A stretch of 36,788 nucleotides of DNA, from the NCBI GenBank assembly GCA_949745625.1, contig CATJZR010000035.1:1-36788 (forward strand). Direction: 5' to 3'. Positions within the stretch are counted from its first letter, which is position 1. Each line of letters starts with the position of its first letter. The position numbers and the translations under genes are program-made. This document shows, piece by piece, positions 4,767 to 7,218 of this stretch. The stretch is from an uncultured Eubacteriales bacterium. GTDB taxonomy: Bacteria; Bacillota; Clostridia; Christensenellales; Borkfalkiaceae. The notes below the pieces were generated by a model, which saw nothing but the letters and a program-made list of their open reading frames with translations, searched no databases and had not been told where the DNA came from.

Positions 4767-4797
4767 AAAATAAAGCGTATGAAACGCTTTATTTTTT
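4767..4797 (+). terminator. Rho-independent terminator between holA and cdaA
   Basis: AAATAAAGCG-tatgaaa-CGCTTTATTTTTT hairpin plus T tract. Confidence 0.8.
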
Positions 4798-4847: not shown

Positions 4848-5672
4848 ATGGCGCAATGGGAAGTAATTAAACAGAATATAATAAACAATTTCGGCAACGG
4901 GTTTGCAGACAGATGGTTTACCTACGTATTACAGCTTATATTGTTTTCTATTTTGTACTATCTTATATTCAAGGTGCTAAGAAACAACAAGGCGGATAAA
5001 TTCGTCGGAATAATCGTGTTTTTTATAGTGCTTATGGGGGTTGCCGTTGCATTCTCGGATAATTTAAATCCCGGATTTATGTTCATAATCGTCGCAATGA
5101 TTGCGCTTTTGGTGTTTACAATGTACCATACGGAAATCAAGCGTTCTCTGCTTGACGCAGGCGTCAAAAAGAGTAAGGCGGAGCCCGTAACCGTAACGGG
5201 GGTCGAGCTGATTATGGACGAAATTGTCCGTGCGGTTCAGAATATGTCAAAAAACGATATCGGCGCGCTTATGGTTCTTTCCAACGACAACCTGCCCGAC
5301 GGAATTATCGAAAGCGGCACTAAAATCAATGCGCAGATAACATCGCAGATGATAGAGGCTATTTTCTATCCCAAAGCACCGCTGCACGACGGCGCGCTCG
5401 TTATAGAGGGAAATAAGCTTTACGCCGCAGGCTGCTTTTTGCCGCTTGCGCAGGACGAAAGATTGCCAAAGGAAATGGGTAGTCGCCACCGCGCCGCACT
5501 CGGTGTAACGATGGTGGCAAGCGTAACCGCGATAGTCGTTTCCGAAGAAACGGGAATTATTTCCATAGTGAAAAACGGCGTTATCAAAAAGAAGTATGCC
5601 GACGCAACCGATATAAAGGAAGCGCTCAGCGATTATTACTGGTCCGATTTAACTGCGGAATCCGTTATTTGA
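4848..5672 (+). CDS. cdaA: Diadenylate cyclase CdaA/DacA (c-di-AMP synthase)
   Basis: Three TM segments then DAC domain motifs DGALVIEGN and SRHRAALGV. ATG at 4848 has a GGAG Shine-Dalgarno; the 4779 ORF-track start lies inside the terminator hairpin. Confidence 0.95.
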   Translation: MAQWEVIKQNIINNFGNGFADRWFTYVLQLILFSILYYLIFKVLRNNKADKFVGIIVFFIVLMGVAVAFSDNLNPGFMFIIVAMIALLVFTMYHTEIKRSLLDAGVKKSKAEPVTVTGVELIMDEIVRAVQNMSKNDIGALMVLSNDNLPDGIIESGTKINAQITSQMIEAIFYPKAPLHDGALVIEGNKLYAAGCFLPLAQDERLPKEMGSRHRAALGVTMVASVTAIVVSEETGIISIVKNGVIKKKYADATDIKEALSDYYWSDLTAESVI

Positions 5673-5684
5673 CAGGTGAATTAA

Positions 5685-5792
5685 ATGAAAAAGTTCGGTA
5701 AATTTTTAAAAGATTTTTTCACTAAGAATATCCCCGTAAAGCTGCTTGCCCTGGTGCTTGCCGCGCTTACGGTGTTGTTTATAAATATATAG
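5685..5792 (+). CDS. 35-aa micro-ORF resembling only the N-terminal signal-anchor of CdaR/YbbR
   Basis: MKKFGKFLKDFFTKNIPVKLLALVLAALTVLFINI*; AGGTG Shine-Dalgarno, 12 nt after the cdaA stop, in the position where cdaR/ybbR normally follows cdaA. Confidence 0.6.
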   Translation: MKKFGKFLKDFFTKNIPVKLLALVLAALTVLFINI

Positions 5793-5797
5793 CGCTC

Positions 5798-5832
5798 TGC
5801 CCGCATCGCGGATTGATAACGCGATGGGGGCA
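5798..5832 (+). other. Stable hairpin in the cdaA-lysC intergenic region (terminator or leader structure)
   Basis: TGCCCGCATCGCG-gattgataa-CGCGATGGGGGCA: 13-nt arms with one mismatch; no clear T tract follows. Confidence 0.55.
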
Positions 5833-5898
5833 ATTTACTGTTATAGTAACTGTTATGCGACAAAATTCATATCTTGTAATAGTAAAGGTTGATGTGCA

Positions 5899-7218
5899 AT
5901 GTCGGTAAAGGTATGTAAATTCGGCGGAACGTCTATGGCGGACGCCAATATAATCAGAAGCGTAAAAAGCATAGTCGAAAGCGATTCGGAGAGGCGTTTT
6001 GTCGTCGTGTCTGCGCCAGGTAAAAGATTTTCGGGCGATAAAAAAATTACCGATTTGCTTTTTGCATGCCATAAAGAGCTTGTTAAAATCGGAAGTTGCC
6101 GAAAAAGCTTTTCGGCGGTTCGTTCGCGTTTTACGGATATTGCCGCACAGCTTGGGCTTAATGTCGATTTAAATAGCGTACTTGACTCAACGCTTGAAAG
6201 GATAGAGCGCGAAAAAAGCGAACAGTTTACCGCTTCGCGCGGGGAATATCTATGCGGTCTCGTCATAGCGGAATACCTCGGCATGCCTTTTATTGACGCA
6301 GAGGACGTTATTTTCTTTAATGATAACGGCACGCTTAACGCCGAAAAATCGTATCGCGCGGTTGCTGCTGCGTGTAGAGAGGGCAGGGCTGTCGTACCCG
6401 GCTTTTACGGCGTTGACGAAAACGGAAAAGTGAGGACCTTTTCCCGCGGAGGTTCGGATATTTCAGGCGCGGTAGTCGCGCGTGCGGTGAACGCGTCGCT
6501 TTATGAAAACTGGACGGATGTTTCCGGCTTTCTAGCGTGCGACCCGCATATAGTAGACAGTCCCGCACCCATAGAAGCGCTGTCGTATAAAGAGCTGCGC
6601 GAGCTCAGCTATATGGGAGCAAACGTGCTACATGCGGAATCGATTTTTCCGGTGCGCAAGGCAAATATTCCAATTCAGATAAAAAACACCTTTCGTCCCG
6701 AAGATACGGGCACGACTATCGTACCGACATCGCGGTATATGCCGAGCGGCAGAATTGTAACGGGCATCGCTGGCAAAAAAAGCTTTACCGTAATTTATAT
6801 AGAAAAATCGCTTATGAATTCGGAAATCGGCTTCGTACGCAAGGTACTTTCTTTGGTGGAAGCCGAAAACGTGTCTGTCGAGCATATCCCTACGGGGATA
6901 GACACGATGTCTCTTTTGATTGAGGACGGCGAATTGACCGAGCTTAAACTTGGCAGAATACTCGAAGGGATAAAGTGCGAGGTCGAGCCGGATATTATCA
7001 GGGTAATGGAAAATATCGCGCTTGTTGCAACGGTTGGCCACGGAATGTCTTCTTCCGTAGGTACCTGCGCGCGGCTGTTCAAGGCCATTGCGGAGGCTGA
7101 AATAAGTATAAAGCTTATCGATATGGGTTCGAGTGAGCTCAATATCGTCGTAGGCGTTAAAAATGAAGATTACGAACGCTGCATAAAGTCGATTTATAAC
7201 GAGTTTTTCGGCGGTTGA
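5899..7218 (+). CDS. lysC: Aspartate kinase
   Basis: KVCKFGGTSMADA, SRGGSDISGAV, ENWTDVSGFLACDP, C-terminal ACT domains. Confidence 0.94.
   Translation: MSVKVCKFGGTSMADANIIRSVKSIVESDSERRFVVVSAPGKRFSGDKKITDLLFACHKELVKIGSCRKSFSAVRSRFTDIAAQLGLNVDLNSVLDSTLERIEREKSEQFTASRGEYLCGLVIAEYLGMPFIDAEDVIFFNDNGTLNAEKSYRAVAAACREGRAVVPGFYGVDENGKVRTFSRGGSDISGAVVARAVNASLYENWTDVSGFLACDPHIVDSPAPIEALSYKELRELSYMGANVLHAESIFPVRKANIPIQIKNTFRPEDTGTTIVPTSRYMPSGRIVTGIAGKKSFTVIYIEKSLMNSEIGFVRKVLSLVEAENVSVEHIPTGIDTMSLLIEDGELTELKLGRILEGIKCEVEPDIIRVMENIALVATVGHGMSSSVGTCARLFKAIAEAEISIKLIDMGSSELNIVVGVKNEDYERCIKSIYNEFFGG

Follow-up and report, generated by a model that had tools for sequence, protein, structure and literature searches.

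Across Bacillota, the gene for CdaR lies behind the gene for an essential cyclase, CdaA, which produces the signal molecule c-di-AMP. In the DNA analyzed here, a stretch of 36,788 nucleotides from an uncultured Eubacteriales bacterium (hereafter, the window), the place of cdaR directly behind cdaA is taken by an open reading frame of 35 amino acids. We asked whether this micro-ORF reflects an error or a recent deletion, a decaying remnant of cdaR, or a gene whose product is maintained by selection, and what such a product might do. An earlier note, which was made from the sequence of the window without database searches, had offered two readings: a large deletion that left only the transmembrane anchor of CdaR, or a single-pass microprotein that retains a regulatory role on CdaA. 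The locus bears on an unsettled subject, because a recent review describes the function of CdaR as unknown (PMC10243994), its mechanism "remains unclear" (PMC8573169), and there is conflict over whether it activates or inhibits (PMC5207132).

The micro-ORF and its neighbors

The coordinates of the features at the locus are given in Table 1. The micro-ORF encodes MKKFGKFLKDFFTKNIPVKLLALVLAALTVLFINI; the cdaA stop codon occupies positions 5670 to 5672, and the micro-ORF begins 12 nt further downstream. AlphaFold predicts two helices in this peptide, separated by a break at residues 16 and 17. The earlier note had described an ORF of this length in the place of CdaR, with a good Shine-Dalgarno sequence and start codon, followed by a hairpin and then lysC, and our analysis bore out its position, its coding capacity and its surroundings. 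The two hairpins possibly serve in attenuation or processing ahead of lysC. They had no match in Rfam, and no canonical T-tailed terminator was found directly behind the micro-ORF. Searches of Pfam and NCBIfam with the 35-amino-acid peptide gave no usable match.

Table 1. Features at the cdaA locus of the window
Feature	Positions	Strand	Basis or remarks
cdaA, diadenylate cyclase (three membrane helices at the N-terminus, cytoplasmic DAC domain)	4848..5672	+	PF02457, TIGR00159, AlphaFold
Shine-Dalgarno sequence of the micro-ORF, AGGTGA	5674..5679	+	5 nt upstream of the ATG, directly after the cdaA stop; sequence
ORF of the CdaR-anchor microprotein	5685..5792	+	35 amino acids; ATG to TAG, stop included
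Lysine-rich helix, codons 3-15, with conserved F12-T13	5691..5729	+	Cytoplasmic side; AlphaFold helix and conservation
Membrane helix, codons 18-34, with conserved stripe K19-A22-A26-V30-N34	5736..5786	+	AlphaFold helix; entropy ~0 at 19, 22, 26, 30 and 34; helical periodicity
Two adjacent RNA hairpins between micro-ORF and lysC	5798..5888	+	Folding z = -3.4
lysC, aspartate kinase	5899..7218	+	PF00696 (AA_kinase) and ACT

We took position 4848 as the start of cdaA, which fits its relatives; an in-frame ATG is also present at 4779. The DAC domain of the product was recognized with an E value of 1.1e-38 (PF02457), and AlphaFold places helices at residues 4 to 46, 50 to 69 and 75 to 92 ahead of the DAC fold. 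The NCBIfam model for CdaA (TIGR00159) scored 172.2 bits and missed its cut-off of 188.8, yet it was still the best model by far. Pfam CdaA_N reached only 12.1 bits, under its cut-off, and NF038327, the CdaM model, scored well under its own. Judged by these profile matches, the protein is a divergent CdaA. In the window genome, glmM lies far from cdaA (G000:C113), and no c-di-AMP riboswitch (RF00379) was found in the assembly, so this genome no longer has cdaA, cdaR and glmM together in the classic operon, and the assembly holds no such reporter of c-di-AMP.

The short frame is present throughout the genus

The window comes from a MAG of 1.44 Mb that is 86% complete and divided into 209 contigs, and a truncated gene in such an assembly could be the product of a recent deletion, or of an assembly or sequencing error, in a single genome. 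A search of 60 relatives with the peptide covered 36 further genomes of the genus, and 33 of these encode it in a short frame that follows cdaA. A genus profile built from 32 of those peptides matched in 86 of 93 genus genomes (59 of 61 among those of good quality). Six of the seven genomes without a match have no cdaA in the assembly, and the seventh has a contig that ends directly behind cdaA; every sequenced species of the genus with cdaA and downstream sequence carries the peptide. Matches found with the single peptide in two genomes (G005 and G043) were chance matches to unrelated frames and were rejected.

The extracytoplasmic YbbR repeats (PF07949) are absent from the micro-ORF. No full-length YbbR protein was found elsewhere in the window assembly, and the YbbR domain was detected in none of the 93 genus genomes, in a search that was positive in four controls, B. 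subtilis among them. The earlier note had considered the coding part undamaged, had proposed looking for a full-length ybbR elsewhere in the genome, and had stated that a full-length cdaR in close relatives or a lack of conservation of the peptide would refute it. Neither of these refuting outcomes occurred, and the conservation of the peptide agrees with an intact coding part. Within the family, 67 fetched genomes share the truncation, and it recurs in four further families, in independent assemblies, which rules out a recent deletion or an error in one genome; we regard that explanation as having practically no chance of being correct. Most of the genomes surveyed are MAGs, and most named records are gut Clostridia; the pattern spans many independent assemblies.

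The peptide descends from the CdaR anchor

Short frames from five families, here called stubs, were aligned by hhalign with the N-termini of CdaR from sister families at a probability of 97.9% (E = 3.8e-13, 32 columns). Applied to the order (297 genomes), a stub profile recovered frames of approximately 35 to 85 amino acids in some families and, in others, frames of 417 to 501 amino acids that are CdaR behind cdaA. In the class (391 genomes), the top matches of this profile beyond the order fell on the N-termini of full CdaR proteins encoded immediately after cdaA. Short frames outside the order were excluded from the count in two genomes that had no cdaA on the fetched locus (G596 and G717), and the loci of further ones (G630, second match; G648; G671) were not included in it.

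Stubs and full CdaR have in common a basic cytoplasmic helix that ends at N15, followed by K19, A/S22 and A26. Full CdaR has W at position 30, which is retained in several stub families and is V in the window's genus. On the strength of these alignments, the product of the micro-ORF is a CdaR-derived N-terminal anchor. It should not bear the name CdaR, because the defining YbbR feature is missing.

Distribution and history of the stub in the order

For 148 genomes of the order we determined what follows cdaA: a full CdaR in 36, a stub in 89 and neither in 23. Full CdaR occurs in families f4, f11, f13, f15, f17, f21, f23, f27, f31 and f33, stubs in f1, f18, f19, f29 and f32, and no gene of either kind in f3, f6, f8, f10, f16, f24 and f30, plus one genus of f32. 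The CdaA tree was rooted with CdaA of other orders and phyla, all of whose cdaA genes neighbor a full CdaR. Stub and no-gene lineages together form one clade in this tree (SH-aLRT 100), with the no-gene lineages nested inside, demonstrating a single origin of the truncated state; three state changes suffice among full, stub and none. The simplest history inferred from the tree would be a single ancient loss of the ectodomain, with the anchor kept in at least five families and the stub later lost on two or more occasions. The first reading of the earlier note, that only the transmembrane anchor was left, therefore holds, but the loss is ancient and predates the split of at least five families. 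The comparison of cdaA neighborhoods that it had called for places the truncated state as common to the family and not recent.

Among stub genomes, all 89 with a readable downstream gene show strict linkage of the stub to cdaA, while the next gene varies (DUF1015, lysC and others). Within the clade, the usual gene behind cdaA or the stub is DUF1015, even where the stub has been lost (for example, L201:3428-4594; PF06245, E = 8.5e-55); lysC is found there instead in the window and a few other loci. Of 94 loci with a stub, 43 show a 4-nt overlap (ATGA) between the micro-ORF and the cdaA stop codon, an arrangement suggestive of translational coupling.

Selection acts on the encoded protein

In 50 aligned cores, the majority base had frequencies of 0.74, 0.91 and 0.50 at codon positions 1, 2 and 3, and synonymous sites were saturated while the protein remained unchanged. 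The dN/dS ratio (omega) in the closest species pairs was approximately 0.05 to 0.08, indicating strong purifying selection in the test that the earlier note had recommended. Residues K19, A22, A26, V30 and N34 are near-invariant and all lie on one face of the helix. Conservation shows helical periodicity, but at only modest significance (p of approximately 0.01 to 0.05, varying with the stretch chosen). These substitution patterns identify the protein itself as the target of purifying selection.

Could the stub nevertheless be what is left of a truncated cdaR, evolving neutrally and without function now? Its complete loss in some relatives, at least two times, and a weak profile match in certain genera of its own family would fit decay. 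A relic, however, would not persist at such divergence with omega this low, with V30 and N34 invariant in all 50 aligned sequences, with a length held at 32 to 39 amino acids in most, and with the peptide in every genus genome where it could be seen, and for this reason we consider decay largely refuted and very improbable. It is similarly hard to credit that the ORF acts as a translated leader or RNA element, in coupling or in attenuation of the next gene, and not through its protein. Such a role would suit the tight coupling to the cdaA stop and the strong RNA structure downstream in the window; it does not suit protein-level conservation in the face of saturated synonymous change, a downstream gene that varies, or the absence of an Rfam match.

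The more serious question concerns the partner. The stub could be a conserved membrane microprotein that inherited its position from CdaR and serves a partner other than CdaA, such as a transporter, a membrane chaperone or itself, and no binding data are available to decide the matter. Families f3, f6, f8, f10, f16 and f24, which belong to the same clade, keep cdaA after loss of the stub, so the stub is not indispensable in every background, and the conserved face of small residues would be compatible with self-association as well. The strict linkage to cdaA in the face of a changing next gene speaks against another partner, as do the conserved positions, which match those of full CdaR, whose known partner is CdaA (PMC10243994). 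We consider a different partner, or self-association of the helix, unlikely and do not exclude either.

A putative membrane subunit of CdaA

We favor the reading that the stub is a conserved, single-pass, CdaR-derived microprotein that acts as a CdaA-bound membrane subunit, a natural minimal CdaR, and we assign this a probability of roughly 0.72 in the absence of expression or binding data. It is the best reading because the published contact between the two proteins lies in their membrane domains: CdaR binds CdaA through these domains, possibly through the first CdaA helix (PMC10243994; PMC8573169). In addition, a suppressor of a ybbR-null mutation in S. aureus altered the third of the membrane helices of DacA (PMC5207132), and CdaA is active as higher oligomers (PMC8573169). 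Given this contact and the oligomer requirement, the stub as a CdaA membrane subunit could aid or restrain assembly.

In the mechanism that we propose, the YbbR repeats would have been lost once, in the common ancestor of at least five families, leaving a free-standing anchor. The stub would be made right after CdaA by coupled translation and would most likely insert N-in/C-out; the topology inferred from the AlphaFold model has a basic segment in the cytoplasm, a single membrane span and hardly anything (about one residue) outside. The small-residue face formed by the five near-invariant positions may pack against the CdaA membrane helices, as reported for the CdaR anchor, and the packed stub would then help to assemble or tune the membrane cyclase without an outside sensing domain. 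Thus, of the earlier note's second reading, the retained microprotein gains support from its conservation under purifying selection; its regulatory role on CdaA is an inference, as are binding to CdaA, activation as opposed to inhibition, and modulation of c-di-AMP.

We compared the match to Pfam CdaA_N in ten CdaA sequences per state, with chosen starts; the model matched 7 of the 10 from loci with full CdaR, 4 of the 10 from stub loci and 0 of the 10 from loci with neither. This fading would fit a joint change of both membrane parts and is no more than suggestive at these sample sizes. A bolder extension, which we rate as evenly balanced, is that the essential part of CdaR, the one that binds CdaA, is just the helix, that the cyclase of this clade is CdaA plus a helix of ~35 amino acids without an extracytoplasmic sensor, and that some lineages subsequently remodeled the membrane domain of CdaA and lost the helix as well.

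Comparison with known systems and implications

Some membrane enzymes and transporters are regulated by single-pass microproteins such as KdpF, AcrZ and MgtR, which are encoded beside their partners or bound to them. The stub resembles these microproteins in size, in its single helix and in being encoded beside its presumed partner; it differs in having arisen by reduction of a known regulator, and we claim no sequence relation. We know of no single-pass regulatory microprotein for a diadenylate cyclase. CdaM of mycoplasmas is likewise a membrane-bound diadenylate cyclase without an adjacent YbbR-domain regulator. It belongs to another cyclase family, as the NF038327 score indicates, and to our knowledge has no retained anchor microprotein. 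Like CdaR, the stub lies directly behind cdaA on the same strand and has the homologous cytoplasmic helix and membrane anchor; unlike CdaR, it has no YbbR repeat, measures 35 amino acids and not 320 to 500, is inferred to expose about one residue outside, and is found in a genome where glmM is elsewhere. Natural CdaA-CdaR fusions in some streptococci demonstrate a CdaR anchor at work beside the CdaA membrane helices, but there the ectodomain is kept and fused, whereas in the stub the ectodomain is lost and the anchor is free (PMC10243994).

We found no description of such a stub in the open literature; subscription journals and preprints were outside the scope of this search. The stub state, a helix-bearing peptide of 32 to 67 amino acids encoded beside the c-di-AMP synthase gene, characterizes a large group of mostly gut Clostridia and amounts to a natural domain-deletion experiment, in which the outer repeats are gone and the membrane helix is under purifying selection in at least five families. 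This conservation suggests that the helix is the working core of CdaR, and it predicts that the membrane helix is the part of CdaR that acts on CdaA. Stubs provide minimal natural constructs for testing. They also constitute an unannotated microprotein family, which size cut-offs in gene callers may overlook.

Variant loci

Ten nearly complete genomes of family f28 (G119, G143, G164, G183, G201, G216, G229, G241, G252 and G263; 0.8 to 1.2 Mb) lack any DAC domain; from this gene content, f28 seems to be a lineage without c-di-AMP synthesis, which was apparently lost. In one f16 genome (G292, C39:45-191), a YbbR match lies at a contig end and is likely contamination or a remnant; sampled cdaA genes of f16 have no adjacent CdaR. 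At three loci, extra DNA separates cdaA from an intact stub (approximately 460 nt in L045 of G089, 260 nt in L005 of G031 and 51 nt in L006 of G001), so the stub persists without direct overlap. Within the window's genus, L034 (G025) and L170 (G072) encode stubs of ~62 to 67 amino acids in which a charged extension at the N-terminus precedes the conserved anchor. The longest stub in the clade, at 128 amino acids (L162 of G365, f32), overlaps the cdaA stop by 4 nt, and its cytoplasmic N-terminus consists of imperfect 'DGYPKTGAYPKT' tandem repeats followed by the same membrane anchor.
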